From positions 1 to 34,275 of the IMG/VR virus record IMGVR_UViG_3300025759_000329: DNA of 34,275 bases; one strand, written 5' to 3'. Below are positions 1,507 to 33,133 of the stretch, one piece after another; positions within the stretch are counted from its first letter, which is position 1, and each line of letters starts with the position of its first letter. Made by a program: the position numbers and the translations under genes. This DNA comes from a virus. Under the pieces are notes generated by a model that did not search any database, had not been told where the DNA came from, and saw only the letters and a program-made list of their open reading frames with translations.

Positions 1507-2910
1507 TTACACGATACCGCGCAAATTCCGTTTCAACTCTCGACGCCAGCTCATCACCGCGCCAGACAACGCAGTCGTGGCCTCGCTTGCCATCGTCAAA
1601 CACAACGCATCCGCCAAGTCCGGGGATCCCAGGCCACGCTTGCGCATTTCATCCTTGCTTTCCGCTTTCATCTTGCCGGAGCTGGTAAAGCTATACTTAA
1701 TCGACGTAAGCTCCGCCATGAGCTGCTCGTTCTCCGGTAACTTACACGATCTATTCTCCAGCCAACCCTTTGTCTTAAACCACAGCTCAGTACGCAAATT
1801 CATGTAAGTTTCCTTCAAGCTAGGCGTTTCACTTACATTCACCCCGCGCACTGGCAAGCCCATCTCGTGCAGTCGGTCAACAACCCCAGCGCCAACACCA
1901 ATACTATCAACTAATATCTCGCGCGGCTGCGCACTTGGCGGTAAACCCTCGTATTCCGCCACAACGCGCCCCACAGTTTGCATCAAGTCCAACCCACGCC
2001 AGGCACGTATTTCAGTCACAATCGGGCCTTGCCGCTTACACAACGCAGTTTTATCCGTTCCAAACCGGGCCACGTCCAAACCCCAAACACTGGGGGTATC
2101 CTCGTGCACCTCTAAATCTCGATGTACCGCCGATTCCACCAAATGATACGGAATAATCGTGTCGTCGTCAGACAACGGGAATTCGCCTAAAACGCGGATC
2201 CGGAACGCGTTGCTTTCCTCCCCGTAACGCTCCCGCATTTCCTGCACAAATTCATCACTCACCAACGGACTGTCAACGCAACTCCAGCGCTGCGTCCACC
2301 AGCTATCCGCCATGCGCGTCTGACTTTCAAAAAATGTCCCACTAGACCGCGTGGGGTTGCTCAAAAGGATCGTCGTGGCGTTATGCCCGGACATAGACCC
2401 AGCCGCCGCCTCAAACACTTTCTCAGGCACACCTGAGGCTTCGTCCACCACCAGAAGCACATTGTCACTATGTACACCAGCCAGCGCCTCTGGAGTTTCT
2501 GCGCGGCTTGTCCTAGCCGAAATAAACGCCTCACTAGGCGCCGCAGTCAGCTCAACCCTGTCCGACTTGACCGTCAACATCTCCTGCAACTGGGGCGGCA
2601 ACTCACTAATCCACCGCTTCAACTCCGCAAACAACGCGTCAAACAACTGACCACTGGTGGGCGCCGTAACAACAACCTTATTGGGAAACCTCAACAGCAA
2701 ATACCACAGCATCGCCCAAGACGCGCTTGTAGACTTACCCGTGCCGTGACCAGAGCGAATTGAGATTTTACGCTCGTTCTGCGCGATTGCATTCAAAAAA
2801 TCCTTCTGGTAAGGTAAAGGCTTTGCGCCCAGCACCTCCTCAACAAAACGCACCGGGTCATCCCAATATTCAACCACAAAATCGTCAAAAGGATTGGATC
2901 CGTCACTCAT
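1507..2910 (-). CDS. terL: Terminase large subunit (packaging ATPase/nuclease), 467 aa
   Basis: This is the motor that translocates and cuts concatemeric DNA into proheads. The start is MSDGSNPFDDFVVEYWDDP, which has GGAG seven bases upstream and overlaps the terS stop by eight bases; a longer reading to 2994 adds an unlikely leader. The ATPase domain has Walker A SGHGTGKS (53-60) and Walker B VLLVVDE (151-157). The RNase-H-like nuclease has GLDVARFGTDK (D279), ILVDSIGVG (D335) and DLADALCLT (D431/D434). Length and motif order are normal for an intact TerL. Confidence 0.97.
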   Translation of the reverse strand: MSDGSNPFDDFVVEYWDDPVRFVEEVLGAKPLPYQKDFLNAIAQNERKISIRSGHGTGKSTSASWAMLWYLLLRFPNKVVVTAPTSGQLFDALFAELKRWISELPPQLQEMLTVKSDRVELTAAPSEAFISARTSRAETPEALAGVHSDNVLLVVDEASGVPEKVFEAAAGSMSGHNATTILLSNPTRSSGTFFESQTRMADSWWTQRWSCVDSPLVSDEFVQEMRERYGEESNAFRIRVLGEFPLSDDDTIIPYHLVESAVHRDLEVHEDTPSVWGLDVARFGTDKTALCKRQGPIVTEIRAWRGLDLMQTVGRVVAEYEGLPPSAQPREILVDSIGVGAGVVDRLHEMGLPVRGVNVSETPSLKETYMNLRTELWFKTKGWLENRSCKLPENEQLMAELTSIKYSFTSSGKMKAESKDEMRKRGLGSPDLADALCLTMASEATTALSGAVMSWRRELKRNLRGIV

Positions 2911-3508
2911 CCACAATCTCCGCGTCCGGTATATCGTCAAGGTTCTGACGATCACGGTTAAACTTACGCAACGCATCCAGGTGCATATCGCCAATATTAA
3001 GCGTTATATTGTTTTGCGGGCGTGTACCATATTTTGCCTGGTTTAACGCGCCAGCCATAAACTTGCGGTAATTCACCTTCTCACGCGTGGCTGAGATTTC
3101 GTTACTTGTGCTATCGCCAGTGAGAGTATCCACCATCGTTAGCCCTTCCTCAACAAGAGCGTCTGCCGCCTCAACGCGGGCTTCCTGAAGTATTTTCCGG
3201 TACTCATCATTGGCGTTCAGAGCGCGGCTCAAATATGACCGGGAACAGCCATAATCCCGCGCAAGCTGCGCCACAGTTATGCCAGAGGCGATCTGATCGT
3301 ATAACCAATCAGCGCCGCCCTGACGCTCAACGTCACTAAGGATCCGCTTTCGTAATGCCTTGCCTGCCACTGGTGTCTCCCAATTTTTCAAAATTTTACG
3401 CGCAGGAGCGGTTTTTGGCAATAGGGGTGCAGGGGGGGTGCGGGTGTGTGTGTTTTGTTGCACCAGAACCCGCCCCTCGATCTGCGCGCCGGGGGGGGTG
3501 TTATGCAT
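2903..3508 (-). CDS. terS: Terminase small subunit, up to 201 aa
   Basis: This is the DNA-recognition partner of TerL, immediately upstream and overlapping it. The central helix-turn-helix (GITVAQLARDYGCSRSYLSR, about residues 77-96) fits TerS DNA-binding domains, and the helical part after it suits oligomerisation. The start is uncertain. The ATG at 3508 has no Shine-Dalgarno and is followed within a few codons by a run of eight Cs. A GTG at 3463 has GAGGGG upstream. The first ~45 residues are Pro/Thr-rich and look unlike a folded domain, which supports the shorter form. Confidence 0.88.
   Translation of the reverse strand: MHNTPPGAQIEGRVLVQQNTHTRTPPAPLLPKTAPARKILKNWETPVAGKALRKRILSDVERQGGADWLYDQIASGITVAQLARDYGCSRSYLSRALNANDEYRKILQEARVEAADALVEEGLTMVDTLTGDSTSNEISATREKVNYRKFMAGALNQAKYGTRPQNNITLNIGDMHLDALRKFNRDRQNLDDIPDAEIVDE
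3424..3444 (+). other. G-run cluster with quadruplex potential inside 5' part of terS
   Basis: The plus strand has GGGG, a seven-G run and GGG separated by 3-4 bases. This satisfies a four-tract G3+ N1-7 pattern because the seven-G run can supply two tracts. A further eight-G run lies at 3491-3498. Both fall in the poorly supported N-terminal extension of terS. Actual quadruplex formation is not shown. Confidence 0.35.
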
Positions 3509-3712
3509 AGTCGTATAATGGGAATTATGTTAAATTATTGGTCAATCGTAATGATATCAATGACTTACAGAGGATATGTATTAAGTATAACTTATGCAAT
3601 ACACGCAAACCACAATATGTTGTGTCCTGAACGCTTGTTCAATTAACGATTTTGCAGTATTCGCGCGCGCGTGCAGGCGAGACTGCGTGTATGTGTAAAC
3701 GAGGTTTTAACC
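3509..3712 (-). promoter_or_regulatory. AT-rich intergenic region upstream of terS with several dyads
   Basis: No convincing gene is seen in these 204 bases. The region contains the inverted repeat TGTATT/AATACA (3577-3603) enclosing TAAGT-ATA-ACTTA, a second dyad CACAA-TATG-TTGTG (3611-3624), a CG alternation at 3662-3671, and a hairpin GAGGTT-TT-AACCTC at 3701-3714 on the stop codon of the upstream gene. On the minus strand TTGATA and, 17 bases on, TAATTT form a weak sigma70-like pair. It probably separates early from packaging transcription and could hold the packaging recognition site. Confidence 0.45.
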
Positions 3713-3901
3713 TCAGTGCATTGTCTCAATATCACCGTTACCTTCAGCGACTAACGCCAGCACCACCACTATCGCAGCCATGACTTCTTCAGGTGTAGCG
3801 CCATCCTCGACCCGCTCATCCATGTAGTCAAACAGCATGTCTACTTCGTTTGTTACTTTGTCTGCATCTTCGCTCATACTAACCCGAACCAGTGTATCCA
3901 T
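3713..3901 (-). CDS. Small acidic protein, 62 aa
   Basis: The start MDTLVRVSMSEDADK is chosen because GAGGAG lies seven bases upstream. The protein is strongly acidic, with a helical-looking hydrophobic segment (EEVMAAIVVVLALVAEG, about residues 38-54) that is amphipathic rather than clearly transmembrane. It is the last gene of the early block, separated from the next upstream gene by the structured 143-base spacer. Small acidic early phage proteins often act as inhibitors or mimics, but nothing here proves that. Confidence 0.65.
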   Translation of the reverse strand: MDTLVRVSMSEDADKVTNEVDMLFDYMDERVEDGATPEEVMAAIVVVLALVAEGNGDIETMH

Positions 3902-3928
3902 TGCTGTGCTCCTCAGTGTTACACTTCA

Positions 3929-4009
3929 TCGTACCACTGATACGACAAGAGGCCCAGTGTTTAACTGAGCCTCTTGGAGCGGCACGCCAGGGAGGAACGC
4001 GAACCGCTC
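3929..4009 (-). other. Three abutting stem-loops in intergenic spacer (candidate structured RNA)
   Basis: Three inverted repeats follow one another without linkers: TCGTA/TACGA (3929-3945), a 13-bp stem CAAGAGGCCCAGT / ACTGAGCCTCTTG with a 5-base loop and one G-U wobble (3946-3976), and GAGCGG/CCGCTC (3977-4009). No T-run follows on either strand, so this is not a normal intrinsic terminator. The third loop carries GGGAGGAACGCG, repeated almost exactly at 4019-4030 (GGGAGGAACACG). In the transcribed minus-strand RNA these read as anti-Shine-Dalgarno-like UUCCUCCC. Confidence 0.5.
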
Positions 4010-4044
4010 TAGCGCATTGGGAGGAACACGCTAACATATATTTA

Positions 4045-4536
4045 TCACTTTGTTTCGTCATCGCCAACCTCATGCAGTTCCGGAAGCAGCGTCACGTCGA
4101 ACACGTAGCTTTCTTTCGCGTTACCGTCTGCGCTTCCCATACGCGCCAGATACTCGTGCAAGTGCAGCTTACCCTCCCGCAATAACCGTTGCATCATCCA
4201 GAGGCCCGCATATCGCACCGTGCGATGCTCTGGATAGCGCACGTCGAACACAATCATTATCTCCGGGTACAACTTCGCGTACCGCCGCAAGTCTTTCCGA
4301 TTGATCGACACAGCGTTGCGCGGATCTATCCCCCAAAACTCCATCGACTTCCGCCACGGCGTTGTGATTGTCTTTAGATCGCACGGCCCCTGCATCACCA
4401 TGTCGTACGTGAATGGATCCCCGTCCTTGTCCGGGTTGCGCTTAATCTTCACCCGGTCAAACCTGCGATCCAGGAACACGCGCTCCAGCTCCTCGCCGTG
4501 CTTGCACCACCAAGCTTTATCTTGATTTGATACCAT
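4045..4536 (-). CDS. Hypothetical protein, possible PD-(D/E)XK-like fold, 163 aa
   Basis: The ORF starts MVSNQDKAWWCKHGEELERV. A possible nuclease-like core is E(16) in EELERVF, YDMVMQG, then CDLKTI (a D-x-K pair), followed by an alternating strand/helix region ending in EIMIVFDVRYPEH. That order resembles compact PD-(D/E)XK proteins, but the key residues are inferred and no family is recognised with confidence. It overlaps the upstream 74-aa gene by 20 bases and belongs to the early operon. Confidence 0.75.
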   Translation of the reverse strand: MVSNQDKAWWCKHGEELERVFLDRRFDRVKIKRNPDKDGDPFTYDMVMQGPCDLKTITTPWRKSMEFWGIDPRNAVSINRKDLRRYAKLYPEIMIVFDVRYPEHRTVRYAGLWMMQRLLREGKLHLHEYLARMGSADGNAKESYVFDVTLLPELHEVGDDETK

Positions 4537-4741
4537 CGCGTTTCTCCAGCTCGTACTTCCTCGCCAGTATTAGCCTTGTCTCATTCTCTGTCCATCGCGG
4601 CGCAACTCGATCTGCAAATTCACCGTTAGGCAACCCCAACACTTTCCGCCGATTTGCGAACCCGTACAACTCGTCAAGAGATGATACAGTTGCCAGTTTT
4701 CTCTCTAACTTCACCAACTGGTCATTCCCGTCTTTGGACAT
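4517..4741 (-). CDS. Small hypothetical protein, 74 aa
   Basis: The ORF starts MSKDGNDQLVKLERKLATVS and is charged, probably all-helical and soluble. The middle has GFANRRKVLGLPNGEF and the end WTENETRLILARKYELEKR, which could be a small DNA-binding helical protein, but this is a guess. Its only Shine-Dalgarno candidate (AGGGG, seven bases before the ATG) lies in one arm of a perfect 18-bp palindrome, so translation is likely controlled by RNA folding or by a protein bound there. Confidence 0.7.
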   Translation of the reverse strand: MSKDGNDQLVKLERKLATVSSLDELYGFANRRKVLGLPNGEFADRVAPRWTENETRLILARKYELEKRDGIKSR

Positions 4742-4745
4742 TAGG

Positions 4746-4763
4746 ACACCCCTATAGGGGTGT
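4746..4763 (-). promoter_or_regulatory. 18-bp perfect palindrome covering a ribosome-binding site
   Basis: ACACCCCTATAGGGGTGT is its own reverse complement and ends four bases before the ATG of the 74-aa gene. Further imperfect symmetry (AGG on one side, GTCCT on the other, offset by two bases) extends it to about 4743-4768. As RNA it would sequester the AGGGG Shine-Dalgarno; as DNA it is a good dimeric operator. Confidence 0.6.
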
Positions 4764-4800
4764 GTCCTGACTGTCCAAGATTGACCACCTTAAGACATAC

Positions 4801-4828
4801 CATGTCCAACTCATGTCCAACCATGTCC
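4801..4828 (-). repeat. GGACATG direct repeats (iteron-like)
   Basis: The heptamer CATGTCC (GGACATG on the minus strand) occurs at 4801, 4812 and 4822, spaced 11 and 10 bases, close to one helical turn. Related GGACA cores occur at 4773-4777 and 4763-4767 beside the palindrome. The last copy overlaps the stop of the primase-helicase gene. The arrangement resembles iterons or cooperative protein-binding sites next to a replication gene. Confidence 0.5.
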
Positions 4829-6591
4829 TAACTCCTCGCTAACTTATTGTTCTTAATGATAAACTTATAGTCATCAATGAGCTTCTTGATGTCCCGATCC
4901 GCCTGCCTTTGTGACCTACCTGTCTCTATCGCCACATTGGCTTTTAGGACACTCCTGGACACGTATTTTTCGCCTTCTGACGCCACCAATTTGTCGTATT
5001 CCTCCCAGATCACGTCCATTGAATCTCGCTCGTTTGCACTTGGCGGATCTGTCTCCTCCAGCACGATACTGGTTGTCTCCTGCATGTCATCCGTCAGTAG
5101 ATCGACGCTCACTTGCATGAACGCCATCTTCGCTGGCTCTGGCGCATCCTTCATTTTGGTGAATTCCACGGTTGTCATAAAGTCGCCCACCTTCTCGATC
5201 CTGAACTCACAATCCAGTGCACCCAGAAGCGCGGAGCTGCCTCGTGCGCGCTGCTTTTCTTGCAGGCCAGTGTGGTGCGCCATGAGCACAGTACACCCAA
5301 ACTCATCCTTCAGACCGTCGCACGCCGCAATATATAAATTCATGTCTTTGGTGCTGTTCTCATCCGCGCCCATAGCCCGCGCCAATGTGTCGATTACAAT
5401 AAGCCCCGGCTGCCCGTACTCTTCCACCATCCCGGCGATTGTCTTGTGCAGCTCGTCCACTTGCGCTTCGTCGCTAAACACCACCGCGCGGTTAGACTTG
5501 AAGAACGGCAGGTCATCCAGTGGCGTGTCGTGCACCTTACTCCACGCTCTACAGCGTCGCACGAAACCGTTATGCCCTTCCCCGGCTATGTAGAACACCG
5601 ACGCCTGCTTTACCTTGCGCCCGTGATAGTCTTTGCCTGACGCAATACTGAGCGCCATGTCAAGCATCACAAATGTTTTACCAGCCGCTGGCGCGCCAAA
5701 CCCTGCCGCAAGTGCGTGCTGCTCCAGGATTCCGTCAATGTGCCACTCCGGACGCTTTAGCTCCAGTGCGCCAATTTTACTGAACAGCTCTTTCTTTTGA
5801 CCGCCGCGCAGTATTTGCTTACGCACCTCCGCCAAACCCTTGGTAGCGTGCACGTCGTTCCAATCTAATCCCGGACGTGACGGCATGACGTACTGCAAGC
5901 CCGTTGCCTTGGCGGCTTCTATGCCTTTCTCGTCGTTGTCTGCGGCGATGATTAGCCTGACGTTTGGTCTAACTTCCTGAATTGCCGCGACTGCTTTCGG
6001 TAGGTTTCCTGCGTCTAACGCAAACACGACAGGCACTCCCATAGCCTCGCTAACGCTACACCCAGTAGCCCAACCCTCCGTCACGTAGCAAACACCATCC
6101 AGCGGGCCGTTTATGACGCTAAACGCGCCCTCCTTTTCCATGCCTGAGCTGAACCGTTTTTTACCGTCCGGCATGATCGTCTGCGTGCCGACGCTTTTGC
6201 CTTGCGCGTTGATAATGCGGATCACCAGCATGTCGTCGTTCAACATGGCGCCGTTTAACGCAACGCCCTTCCGTTCGTGGTATGCCTTTGGCGCCACGTC
6301 TGAGAACGGGTTGCTCAATGTCGCGCTCAGGTCAGGCCAATCGTTATTCTTTTGCCCTTTTACGGGCCACACGCAATCCTCCTCCAGGATCGTGCGTATG
6401 TCCTCAAAACTGCAACCCTGGTTGCAATTAAACTTAACCTCGTTATTAATATTGGATATATAAAATCTGTCTCTACCTGAGCACTGTGGGCAAGGGCCGT
6501 TGTAGTGGTCTTTGCCCGTTTTTTTGAGATTGTATCTTGTGATTATGCGCGGCGCGAACTCATCCCAATGCGCCTTTGGAAAATCGGTCAT
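4828..6591 (-). CDS. Primase-helicase (zinc finger, Toprim, RecA-like ATPase), 587 aa
   Basis: This is a replication protein that combines a primase-type front half with a RepA/DnaB-like ATPase. The start MTDFPKAHWDEF has GGGAG just upstream; an earlier ATG at 6609 is less likely. A zinc finger uses C34, C37, C56 and C60. The Toprim core has VTEGWATG (E172) and AADNDEKG (D218/D220). Walker A is GAPAAGKT (299-306) and Walker B GLIVIDTLARA (396-406), followed by MAHHTG and RGSSALLGA. The last ~60 residues look like a winged helix. No DNA polymerase accompanies it, so it probably recruits the host replisome. Confidence 0.92.
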   Translation of the reverse strand: MTDFPKAHWDEFAPRIITRYNLKKTGKDHYNGPCPQCSGRDRFYISNINNEVKFNCNQGCSFEDIRTILEEDCVWPVKGQKNNDWPDLSATLSNPFSDVAPKAYHERKGVALNGAMLNDDMLVIRIINAQGKSVGTQTIMPDGKKRFSSGMEKEGAFSVINGPLDGVCYVTEGWATGCSVSEAMGVPVVFALDAGNLPKAVAAIQEVRPNVRLIIAADNDEKGIEAAKATGLQYVMPSRPGLDWNDVHATKGLAEVRKQILRGGQKKELFSKIGALELKRPEWHIDGILEQHALAAGFGAPAAGKTFVMLDMALSIASGKDYHGRKVKQASVFYIAGEGHNGFVRRCRAWSKVHDTPLDDLPFFKSNRAVVFSDEAQVDELHKTIAGMVEEYGQPGLIVIDTLARAMGADENSTKDMNLYIAACDGLKDEFGCTVLMAHHTGLQEKQRARGSSALLGALDCEFRIEKVGDFMTTVEFTKMKDAPEPAKMAFMQVSVDLLTDDMQETTSIVLEETDPPSANERDSMDVIWEEYDKLVASEGEKYVSRSVLKANVAIETGRSQRQADRDIKKLIDDYKFIIKNNKLARS

Positions 6592-11313: not shown

Positions 11314-11529
11314 CTATGAGTTAAACGCTGCGGCAAGCGCAATCTTCTTTGCCTCCGCAAGAGTTTTTGGGAAAGCTAAGTCTTTAACTACATCTCCTAA
11401 ATCTTCAGTGACTGCGTAAAATCCGCAATAATGCTTACAGTCTTGAATGCTAATATTAGAGTCTGGAATGCGCCATGCGCCATCTTCAATCTCTTCAAAC
11501 TCTGGTGCTTCATATACAAATTGTGTCAT
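11314..11529 (-). CDS. Small hypothetical protein with duplicated N-terminus, 70 aa
   Basis: The gene starts MTQFVYEAPEFEEIEDGAWR. Its first 28 codons are identical, base for base, to the start of the gene just upstream (11526-11783). After that the sequences diverge completely; here the unique part is QDCKHYCGFYAVTEDLGDVV and a helical tail. Its ATG overlaps the upstream stop (ATGA). The acidic shared segment may be a targeting or interaction module. Confidence 0.7.
   Translation of the reverse strand: MTQFVYEAPEFEEIEDGAWRIPDSNISIQDCKHYCGFYAVTEDLGDVVKDLAFPKTLAEAKKIALAAAFNS
11446..11529 (-). repeat. 84-bp perfect direct repeat, copy 1 (gene start)
   Basis: These 84 bases match 11700-11783 without mismatch and encode codons 1-28 of the 70-aa gene. 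The match stops exactly at the ATG on one side and after codon 28 (Ile) on the other. The copies are 254 bases apart. Confidence 0.95.
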
Positions 11530-11783
11530 GTGTCTAAACCTTCCCAATCTGTGATAAACTCAGTGACGAATTGTCGTTGCGCGGCGGTTAAATCATCGTG
11601 CAATATGGCTTCTTGTGCATCCCATTCCGCGGGCAAGTTCTCGCGGTCAAGAAATGCCGCCCATTTGTTGCAAAGGTTATCAAAGGTTATTAATTCCACA
11701 ATGCTAATATTAGAGTCTGGAATGCGCCATGCGCCATCTTCAATCTCTTCAAACTCTGGTGCTTCATATACAAATTGTGTCAT
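11526..11783 (-). CDS. Small acidic early protein, first gene of early operon, 85 aa
   Basis: The gene starts MTQFVYEAPEFEEIEDGAWR with an excellent ribosome-binding site (AAGGAGGA, seven bases upstream). It is the promoter-proximal gene of the early block. The body (DNLCNKWAAFLDRENLPAEW and onward) is acidic and helical. The first 28 codons are duplicated in the next gene. Being first, acidic and strongly translated suggests an early host-interaction role, which is inference. Confidence 0.75.
   Translation of the reverse strand: MTQFVYEAPEFEEIEDGAWRIPDSNISIVELITFDNLCNKWAAFLDRENLPAEWDAQEAILHDDLTAAQRQFVTEFITDWEGLDT
11700..11783 (-). repeat. 84-bp perfect direct repeat, copy 2 (gene start)
   Basis: This is the second copy of the 84-bp repeat, encoding codons 1-28 of the 85-aa gene. 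Bases flanking the repeat differ from copy 1 on both sides, so the repeat boundaries are sharp. Confidence 0.95.
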
Positions 11784-11892
11784 ATCGCGTTCCTCCTTAA
11801 CGATAACTAATATATAAAAACCTATATAATCATATACAAGGCATGTCTACAAAAAAGTTACATAATTTTGTATAAGATTCGGAGGGGGGCAA
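11784..11892. promoter_or_regulatory. AT-rich divergent promoter region
   Basis: This 109-base spacer separates the minus-strand early operon from the plus-strand HNH gene. On the minus strand, TTGTAT (11839-11834), 17 bases, then TATATA (11816-11811) forms a plausible sigma70 promoter followed by AAGGAGGA. On the plus strand there is an exact TATAAT (11825-11830) and TATAAG (11871-11876), both with poor -35 boxes, and GGAGGGG before the HNH start. Strength is not known. Confidence 0.55.
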
Positions 11893-12246: not shown

Positions 12247-12711
12247 CTCAAAGTGTGGCATGTCGTTGAAGCCTTTGCGGCCCTGGTCACGCCGTAGCTG
12301 GTGGTATGCTTCCCAGCATGATTCCATGTCACCTTCCCACATACGGCAGTCGTATGGGTATTTGTGATCCGGCACTGCCCAAGCTGCACCCCAGCACAGC
12401 GACACGTCGCACACCTTTGCCGCTTGCTGCATGGCGTCGGCAATGGGGAAGTACGCAGCCTCCTCCCAGCGGATCCCCGTAACACTGTCATATGCGCCTA
12501 GGTCAACGGCTAGACCGTCAATGTGCTTGGACTTCATGGTTTGGCTGTTACCCTTCTCCACCAGCTCTCTCTGGCGCTCGATGGATCTCAAACCTTCCAG
12601 CACTGTGAAGTCGGTTTTCGATATGCCGATTGCATACTTGACGACAGCAACCAAACGCTCGTCTACACCTTCCAGGCGTGACAAGCTGCGTTTTCCTAAT
12701 TTAAAGCTCAT
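12235..12711 (-). CDS. Endolysin, M15-type peptidase (L-Ala-D-Glu/D-Ala-D-Ala), 158 aa
   Basis: This enzyme cleaves peptide bonds of peptidoglycan to lyse the host. The zinc site is SKHIDGLAVDLG (H63, D70) plus PHFEL near the end (H153), the order seen in VanY/T5-endolysin-like M15 peptidases. There is no signal sequence, so it needs the holin upstream. The start overlaps the holin stop (ATGA). The C-terminus overlaps the opposite-strand HNH gene. This is a normal-size single-domain enzyme. Confidence 0.93.
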   Translation of the reverse strand: MSFKLGKRSLSRLEGVDERLVAVVKYAIGISKTDFTVLEGLRSIERQRELVEKGNSQTMKSKHIDGLAVDLGAYDSVTGIRWEEAAYFPIADAMQQAAKVCDVSLCWGAAWAVPDHKYPYDCRMWEGDMESCWEAYHQLRRDQGRKGFNDMPHFELIV

Positions 12712-30694: not shown

Positions 30695-33133
30695 TTACCT
30701 AAATATATACGCTTTTCCGCTAGACGTACTGCCAGCGTCATCTTCCGCATAAGCACCAACTATGGCATAACTGTCTGAGATGGATACGCTGCGGCCAAAT
30801 AAATCGCCTGAGCTTGTACTATAGGCGCTAGGGTTGTCTAGCGTATGAAGCAGAGAGCCAGTGGATGCGTTAAATATGTAGGCTTTTCCGCTAGCCGATC
30901 CGCCAGCGTCATCTTCAAAATAAGCACCAACTATTGCATGGGTATCTGAGATAGATACGCTATAGCCGAAATTATCGCTTGCGCCTGTGTCATAAGCACT
31001 AGGGTTATCTAACGTATGAAGCAGAGAGCCAGTAGACGGATCAAATATGTAGGCTTTTCCGCTATTACCTCCGCTAGCGTCATCTTCTTGATAAGCACCA
31101 ACTATTGCATAACTGTCTGAGATGGATACGCTAAAGCCAAATCGGTCGTTTAAGCTTGTACTATAGGCATTAGGGTTATCTAGCGTATGAAGCAGAGCGC
31201 CAGTAGACGGGTTGAATATGTAAGCTTTTCCGCTAGACGATCCGCCAGCGTCATCTTCAAAATAAGCACCAACTATTGCATAACTGTCTGAGATGGAAAC
31301 GCTGATGCCAAATAAATCGTTTGCGCTTGTGCTGTAAGCATTAGGGTTGTCTAGCGTATGAAGCAAAGCGCCAGTAGACGGGTTGAATATGTAGGCTTTT
31401 CCGCTATTACTTCCGCCAGCGTCATCTTCTAAATAAGCACCAACTATGGCGTAACTGTCTGAGATAGATGCGCTATAGCCAAACCTGTCGTCTGCGCTCG
31501 CGCCGTAAGCGTTAGGGTTGTCTAACGTATGAAGCAAAGCGCCAGTAGACGGGTTGAATATGTAGGCTTTGCCGCTATCACTTCCGCCAGCGTCATCTTC
31601 TTGATACGCGCCAACTATTGCATAACTGTCTGAGATGGATACGCTAAAGCCAAATACATCGTTCGCGCTTGTGCTGTAATCATTAGGGTTGTCTAGCGTA
31701 TGAAGCAAAGCGCCAGTGGACGGATCAAATATGTAGGCTTTTCCGCTAGACGTACTGCCAGCTTCATCTTCCGCATGAGCGCCAACTATTGCATAACTGT
31801 CTGAGATGGATACGCTGCGGCCAAATGAATCATCCTGTGAGCCTCCATATTGAGAGTTTGTTACATTGTTTAATGTGTATTTGTAATTGAATGAGCTATC
31901 ATATACATAAGCCTTGCCGCTAGAAGTTCCCAAAACGTCATCTTCTTGATAAGCACCAACTATTGCACAACTGTCTGAGATAGATACGCTAAAGCCAAAA
32001 TAATCATCTTGGCTTGTGCTGTAAGCATTAGGGTTGTCTAACGTATGAAGCAGAGAGCCAGTGGATGCGTTAAATATGTAGGCTTTTCCGCTAGACGATC
32101 CGCCAGCGTCATCTTCTAAATACGCTCCTACTATAGCATAACTGTCTGAGATGGATACGCTAGCGCCGAAATTATCGCCTGAGCTTGTACTATAGGCGCT
32201 AGGGTTGTCTAACGTATGAAGCAAAGCGCCAGTAGACGGGTTGAATATGTAGGCTTTTCCGCTATCACTTCCGCCAGCGTCATCTTCTTGATAAGCACCA
32301 ACTATGGCATAACTGTCTGATATAGATACGCTAATGCCAAATTGGTCATTTGCGCTTGTACTATAAGCATTAGGGTTGTCTAACGTATGAAGCAAAGCGC
32401 CAGTAGACGGGTTGAATATGTAGGCTTTTCCGCTAGACGATCCGCCAGCGTCATCTTCTAAATAAGCACCAACTATGGCATAACTGTCTGAGATGGATAC
32501 GTTGCGGCCAAAATAATCGCTTGCGCTTGTACTATAAGCATTAGGGTTGTCTAGCGTATGAAGCAGAGAGCCAGTGGACGGGTTGAATATGTAGGCTTTG
32601 CCGCTAGACGATCCGCTAGCGTCATCTTCTAAAAAAGCACCTACTATGGCATAACTGTCTGAGACAGATACGCTATAGCCAAAATAATCATCTTGGCTTG
32701 TGCTGTAATCATTAGGGTTGTCTAACGTATGAAGTAGAACGCCAGTAGACGGGTCAAATATGTAGGCTTTGCCGCTATTACTTCCGCCAGCGTCATCTTC
32801 TTGATAAGCTCCTACTATGGCGTAGCTGTCTGAAATAGATACGCTAAAGCCGAAATTATCGCTTGCGCCTGTGTCATACGCACTAGGGTTGTCTAACGTA
32901 TGAAGCAGAGCGCCAGTGGATGCGTTAAATATATACGCTTTTCCGCTAGATCCGCTAACGTCATCTTCTAAATAAGCTCCTACTATTACATAACTGTCTG
33001 AGACAGATACGCTATAGCCGAAATAATCGTTTTGATTATAAGCTGAAAAAGGGTTTGGGTTGTCCAGCGTTTTAATTCTACCAGACCTAAAACCGCCCTT
33101 TATTGCTTGCAGTAGTTTTTTCTTAGTTGCCAT
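30695..33133 (-). CDS. Giant FG-GAP beta-propeller virion protein, 812 aa, 14 repeats
   Basis: After ~37 residues (basic start MATKKKLLQAIKGGFRSGRI, then a strand like the repeat end), the whole protein is 14 copies of a ~57-residue unit: FGxSVSISDSYAIVGAYxED, DAGGSxSGKAYIFNPSTG, then ALLHTLDNPNAYSTSxxD. This fits FG-GAP_2-type propeller blades. Unit 7 (residues 379-436) is divergent, splitting the array into seven plus seven. The last unit is cut after GKAYIFR, and the N-terminal IKTLDNPNPF can supply the missing strand. A two-propeller adhesin is inferred. A chaperone-like gene follows. Confidence 0.88.
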   Translation of the reverse strand: MATKKKLLQAIKGGFRSGRIKTLDNPNPFSAYNQNDYFGYSVSVSDSYVIVGAYLEDDVSGSSGKAYIFNASTGALLHTLDNPSAYDTGASDNFGFSVSISDSYAIVGAYQEDDAGGSNSGKAYIFDPSTGVLLHTLDNPNDYSTSQDDYFGYSVSVSDSYAIVGAFLEDDASGSSSGKAYIFNPSTGSLLHTLDNPNAYSTSASDYFGRNVSISDSYAIVGAYLEDDAGGSSSGKAYIFNPSTGALLHTLDNPNAYSTSANDQFGISVSISDSYAIVGAYQEDDAGGSDSGKAYIFNPSTGALLHTLDNPSAYSTSSGDNFGASVSISDSYAIVGAYLEDDAGGSSSGKAYIFNASTGSLLHTLDNPNAYSTSQDDYFGFSVSISDSCAIVGAYQEDDVLGTSSGKAYVYDSSFNYKYTLNNVTNSQYGGSQDDSFGRSVSISDSYAIVGAHAEDEAGSTSSGKAYIFDPSTGALLHTLDNPNDYSTSANDVFGFSVSISDSYAIVGAYQEDDAGGSDSGKAYIFNPSTGALLHTLDNPNAYGASADDRFGYSASISDSYAIVGAYLEDDAGGSNSGKAYIFNPSTGALLHTLDNPNAYSTSANDLFGISVSISDSYAIVGAYFEDDAGGSSSGKAYIFNPSTGALLHTLDNPNAYSTSLNDRFGFSVSISDSYAIVGAYQEDDASGGNSGKAYIFDPSTGSLLHTLDNPSAYDTGASDNFGYSVSISDTHAIVGAYFEDDAGGSASGKAYIFNASTGSLLHTLDNPSAYSTSSGDLFGRSVSISDSYAIVGAYAEDDAGSTSSGKAYIFR
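30698..33022 (-). repeat. Tandem ~171-bp coding repeats (14 units)
   Basis: The repeats are ~171 bp, in frame, and very similar in DNA as well as protein. Unit lengths in codons are 56, then five of 57, 58 (the divergent unit), six of 57 and a final partial of 34. Several unit junctions recur at distance (for example the PSAYDTGASDN junction between units 1/2 and 12/13), as expected from recombination within the array. It is coding, not CRISPR. Confidence 0.92.

Follow-up and report, generated by a model that had tools for sequence, protein, structure and literature searches.

Rhizobia and Rhodobacter use anti-Shine-Dalgarno (anti-SD) hairpin RNAs to regulate stress and nutrient responses. 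Several alphaproteobacterial RNAs, among them SmelA075, SmelA099 and the two-hairpin Rhodobacter RS0680a, are built of adjacent hairpins with variable stems and the anti-SD sequence CCUCCUCCC in the loops (PMC3927594). NfeR1/ar14 has three hairpins with anti-SD loops (PMC10746234, PMC7143759), and ntrB is repressed by NfeR1 via the anti-SD motifs (PMC10746234). RNase E releases the CcsR RNAs by cleaving the ccaF1 transcript (PMC10253847). In phages, the C4 antisense RNA of P1 and P7 has been described (PMC12197685). Within the literature we searched, mainly outside subscription journals, no paper was found that ties CcsR1 to prophages or anti-SD small RNAs to alphaproteobacterial prophages, and a review of phage-derived small RNAs made no mention of anti-SD hairpin RNAs.

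The window analysed here is a viral DNA stretch of 34,275 nucleotides (IMGVR_UViG_3300025759_000329). It contains a structured RNA element of about 90 bases (4033..3946) on the minus, coding strand, which consists of three abutting hairpins (Table 1). The 90 nt from 4033 down folded at -48.6 kcal/mol (z -8.6), and none of 200 dinucleotide shuffles was as stable. Among 2279 90-nt windows on the coding strand, the element had the lowest energy. The earlier note had listed three abutting inverted repeats with 5-bp, 13-bp (including a wobble) and 6-bp stems at 3929-3945, 3946-3976 and 3977-4009. All three exist, but the hairpin at 4010-4033 had been missed, and the one at 3929-3945 is probably outside the RNA because its stretch is unconserved in a divergent relative. 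The 12-base element said to recur 29 bases apart was also found, with GGGAGGAACGCG at 3990 and GGGAGGAACACG at 4019 identical at 11 of 12 positions. Hairpin 1 encloses the second GGGAGGAAC, and therefore each repeat copy forms the loop of a minus-strand hairpin. In shuffles that left both motifs in place, only 14 of 3000 sequences had the two in hairpin loops, and the native energy was never reached. In the isolated RNA, the computed unpaired probability of the loops was 0.89-1.00 in all variants.

Table 1. Positions of the RNA element, neighbouring features and the predicted target in the window.
Feature	Position	Strand	Description
Hairpin 1	4010..4033	-	UAGCGUGUUCCUCCCAAUGCGCUA; stem TAGCGTG/TGCGCTA; from fold and conservation
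Hairpin 1 loop motif	4019-4026	-	UUCCUCCC
Hairpin 2	3977..4009	-	GAGCGGUUCGCGUUCCUCCCUGGCGUGCCGCUC; stem GAGCGG/CCGCTC, 6 bp; from fold and conservation
Hairpin 2 loop motif	3990-3997	-	UUCCUCCC
Hairpin 3	3946..3976	-	CAAGAGGCUCAGUUAAACACUGGGCCUCUUG; 13-bp stem CAAGAGGCTCAGT/ACTGGGCCTCTTG with one wobble; without the motif
Fourth small hairpin	3929..3945	-	TCGTA/TACGA, 5 bp; in the linker; unconserved in the divergent relative
AU-rich leader	4034..4044	-	11 nt from the stop of the 163-aa gene to hairpin 1; candidate processing site
Upstream 163-aa gene	4045..4536	-	No family found; stop 11 nt before hairpin 1
Downstream 62-aa gene (P0001)	3713..3901	-	Phage family without known function
Shine-Dalgarno GAGGAG of the 62-aa gene	3909..3914	-	Pairs with UUCCUC of hairpin 1 in the full-length window fold
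Terminase small subunit gene	2903-3508		400 bases downstream of the element
Predicted target	11785..11796	-	GGAGGAACGCGA; perfect complement of hairpin 2 over 12 nt, at the ribosome site of gene 11526-11783

The large terminase of this phage is 56% identical to that of Sinorhizobium phage phiM5, and the primase-helicase is 47% identical to that of Roseobacter phage CRP-406. Judged from the terminase and primase only, the host is likely an alphaproteobacterium. The architecture and the likely host together point to the alphaproteobacterial anti-SD RNAs (cuckoo/CcsR/ar14). The phage element shares adjacent hairpins, anti-SD loops and variable stems with the cuckoo group (Rhodobacter RS0680a/CcsR1-4, Sinorhizobium SmelA075/SmelA099), and RS0680a likewise has two motif hairpins. 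A further likeness is that the CcsR RNAs of this group are processed from a transcript that also carries a small gene upstream. SmelA075 and SmelA099, read from pSymA as positive controls, both contained the module of a hairpin with the anti-SD motif in its loop. Members of the group have two to four adjacent hairpins with CCUCCUCCC in each loop. The phage element has three abutting hairpins, two with a motif, but these two loops carry UUCCUCCC, and hairpin 3, an addition relative to the group, carries none. Of the 9 canonical positions, 7 agree in these loops and 8 in those of the divergent relative, so the element falls outside the cuckoo group in the strict sense. It also differs by its location in a phage. 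The upstream 163-aa gene has no family match and is therefore not DUF1127, the linkage of the Rhodobacter type.

ar14/NfeR1 (Rfam RF02344) likewise consists of three hairpins with anti-SD loops and acts by silencing translation start sites, as for ntrB, but it bears the motif in all three hairpins, whereas the phage RNA bears it in two. The ar14 model (gathering score 58.8 bits) found nothing at the locus with E up to 10, and its best-scoring site in the genome (10 bits) was elsewhere and unrelated, at 12440-12572. C4 is similarly phage-encoded with loop sequences complementary around a ribosome-binding site, but it controls one ant gene in enterobacterial phages, and its Rfam model had no match in 3700-4150 at E up to 10. 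sX13 (RF02232) is a three-hairpin small RNA with C-rich loops, but it belongs to Xanthomonadaceae. Rfam searches at the gathering threshold and at E 10 gave nothing else at the locus, and the sX13 match was rejected as chance level, since it scored 13 bits where the gathering score is 50 (E 5.3). The initial impression that no RNA family could be recognised thus held for Rfam, but not for the literature, in which the element resembles cuckoo/CcsR/ar14. By analogy, the phage RNA should be a variant of the cuckoo/ar14 design with a changed seed, and it should work alike.

The RNA recurred in six further phage contigs, five of them close (94-100% identical) and one divergent (L011, which is the same as L021 and L027; IMGVR_UViG_3300017913_000642). 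The 62-aa protein of the divergent contig is 68% identical. In L011, the RNA was 81% identical, more than the DNA of the flanking 62-aa gene (74%) or the linker (51%). The changes in the relatives largely preserved pairing. In hairpin 3 of L011, two pairs were changed on both sides, from G-C to A-U and from U-A to C-G. Hairpin 1 showed a U-G to C-G change, and also a G-U to C-G change after one alignment gap was shifted by hand. Single changes kept pairing as wobbles (U-A to U-G, A-U to G-U and G-C to G-U). Hairpin 2 lost three inner pairs in L009 and L010, where the mismatches included a possible tandem G-A. Across four distinct rows, the three stems were paired in 94% of cells, compared with 32-50% when slid. 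The covariation check proposed in the earlier note could be run weakly with these four distinct sequences, and its counts did not exceed those of column shuffles. Because the alignment rows are so few, the pattern supports a structured RNA without amounting to proof. Overall, the element is a real, conserved, phage-borne structured RNA. The earlier proposal of a phage structured RNA with two anti-SD loops was borne out by the extreme folding energy, the recurrence in seven contigs including a divergent one, and the compensatory and wobble changes that maintained pairing. A peptide encoded through the element was rejected, as the frame is broken in L011 by a 1-nt length change near the hairpin 1 loop.

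The terminase small subunit gene lies close downstream, which would suit a DNA-level signal in which the inverted repeats form, for example, a site for packaging or protein binding. The G-U wobbles in hairpins 1 and 3, however, fit RNA pairing and not palindromic DNA, as do the changes in relatives that create G-U pairs, and we regard such a signal as highly improbable. In the noncoding gap before that gene (3509-3712), ACATATCCTCTGTAAGTCATTGATAT is kept in L011, there too following the 62-aa gene, and is a possible promoter or packaging signal.

Outside this clade the RNA could not be traced. A covariance model (R1) run over 52 loci gave strong matches confined to the seven contigs, with no further clear homologue. 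Several weak matches (12.8-21.7 bits) lay on cuckoo/ar14-type sites (L197, L200, L153, L073, L096 and L102). Where the 62-aa gene is more distantly related (60% identity and below), the RNA was absent and the upstream gene was mostly a different one. Primase relatives at 42-57% identity carried no comparable RNA. No second copy was present in the same genome. When phages and plasmids were searched with the RNA at the nucleotide level, the only matches were short and at chance level, and the strict RNA pattern found four matches in genomes, in Collinsella and actinomycetes, which were judged to be chance. The 62-aa family was not found in the genome contigs scanned, nor were twin anti-SD hairpins found in phiM5, two Manatee Spring genomes or CRP-406.

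Another explanation is a terminator or RNA-stabilising hairpin array that ends the upstream operon, with the anti-SD loops being incidental. The element begins 11 nt past a stop codon and includes a long, GC-rich hairpin (hairpin 3). But there is no U-run. The absence of a T-run had already been pointed out, and our search for a GC-rich hairpin with a U-run likewise called no minus-strand terminator or terminator-like site across 3600-4700. Moreover, both loops keep UCCUCCC in L011 in spite of changed stems and a changed hairpin 3 loop. On the entire 34-kb coding strand, CCTCCC occurs twice, and both copies are the loops of hairpins 1 and 2. This reading therefore seems quite improbable. The shorter CCTCC occurs 4 times on the coding strand versus 41 times on the opposite strand, where many copies presumably represent complements of Shine-Dalgarno-like sequences.

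The loops might instead act in cis. The GAGGAG before the downstream gene, present as had been described, could pair with UUCCUC of hairpin 1 and close a multibranch junction, so that the start site of the 62-aa gene would be hidden until a signal or the ribosome opened it. In a 151-nt fold of this region the Shine-Dalgarno site was fully paired (z -6.3; unpaired probability 0.00), and the position directly before the 62-aa gene was kept in 7 of 7 contigs. In four close relatives (L002, L007, L009 and L010), however, the unpaired probability of the site was 0.50-0.56, and in L011 the loops stayed free (0.98-1.00 unpaired). This half-open site and these free loops show that the pairing is unconserved. 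In addition, the linker is only 51% identical compared with 81% for the hairpins, and a single Shine-Dalgarno site needs no two equal loops. A 5'-UTR switch is thus unlikely, and as the only function it was rejected, since the pairing is strong in the window alone. The loops had been suggested to pair either with this GAGGAG or with other messages; the first half is not conserved among relatives, and the second is the better supported.

The plausible genes near the site are all on the minus strand, and neither neighbouring protein (163 aa or 62 aa) had a Pfam family match. Among relatives of the 62-aa gene that lack the RNA (L012-L043), a promoter-like TTGTAGACT or TGTACAAT was shared 25-35 bases before the gene; the 62-aa gene may thus be transcribed from a promoter of its own. 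Ahead of the primase gene, the gap at 4735-4830 contains the palindrome GGACACCCCTATAGGGGTGTGTCC followed by several ATGTCC(AAC) copies, possibly operator or origin repeats. Elsewhere in the window, an 812-aa protein (30695-33133, minus strand) shows 14 stretches that match FG-GAP repeats (Pfam E 3e-153) and is a possible adhesion or receptor-binding protein.

Taken together, the computed structure, conservation, loop accessibility and complementarity to Shine-Dalgarno sites make it fairly probable that the element is a small regulatory RNA of the phage, acting in trans as an anti-SD RNA to repress translation initiation. Its transcription, processing, trans action and targets may be pictured as follows. 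The RNA would be transcribed in the same orientation as the phage genes, either together with the 163-aa gene or from a promoter just before it, although no clear promoter was found for the hairpin RNA. If co-transcribed, it would be cut from the 3' UTR of the 163-aa gene by processing in the AU-rich leader. Hairpin 3, which lacks a U-run, is probably a 3' end or stability hairpin, and would most likely form and protect the 3' end. Hairpins 1 and 2 would display the UUCCUCCC loops and pair in trans with purine-rich Shine-Dalgarno sites on phage messages, host messages or both, blocking ribosome binding as in cuckoo/CcsR/ar14. By this analogy, the RNA probably switches off translation of chosen messages. 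The resemblance of the loops to the seed of host regulators would also suit a decoy that mimics host cuckoo RNAs and titrates their messages or binding protein without repressing phage messages, but we give this very little weight.

For the proposed trans-acting repressor, the best duplex among 48 phage gene starts was between hairpin 2 and the predicted site before the 85-aa gene at 11526-11783, with 12 contiguous pairs and -28.7 kcal/mol. With the seed held constant and its flanks shuffled as the null, a match of at least 12 had a P of about 0.008. Close variants in which AGCG replaces CGCG would retain a match of 10 nt. Coevolution of the RNA with this target was uninformative because the two contigs found were >99% identical. 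The predicted-target region also contains an exact 84-bp duplication (11446-11529 and 11700-11783), through which gene 11526-11783 and the next gene (start about 11529) share their first 28 residues, MTQFVYEAPEFEEIEDGAWRIPDSNISI.

Hairpins of the cuckoo type were also present in other viral contigs. A scan for two CCTCCTCCC 12-30 bases apart returned at least 120 stretches, and among the matches listed 55 of 128 folded as two motif hairpins, compared with 8 of 384 with shuffled flanks. Many viral or proviral contigs had canonical twin CCUCCUCCC hairpins (L134-L247, for example L137, L142, L147, L153, L156, L183, L200 and L216), some of which sit between clear phage genes. In L216, a gene for a phage major head protein (phrog_371, E 7e-122) ends 16 nt before the first motif. 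Further copies come from isolate proviruses, where they may lie in flanking DNA and belong to the host. In three isolate proviruses (L073, L096 and L102), ar14-like copies scored 25.8-30.6 bits, under the gathering score. The viral cuckoo loci showed no general preference for 3' UTRs (7 of 44, against a background of 16%).

It is a tentative possibility that phages of alphaproteobacteria commonly carry their own cuckoo-like anti-SD RNAs, which during infection might shut off host or rival messages or time the phages' own genes, and that the present locus might represent a phage-specific lineage with an altered seed. If true, the phage-borne version would be a compact form of viral translation control, with a short seed that lends itself to mutational tests. 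The many viral and proviral contigs with twin hairpins make this idea testable in culturable prophages.
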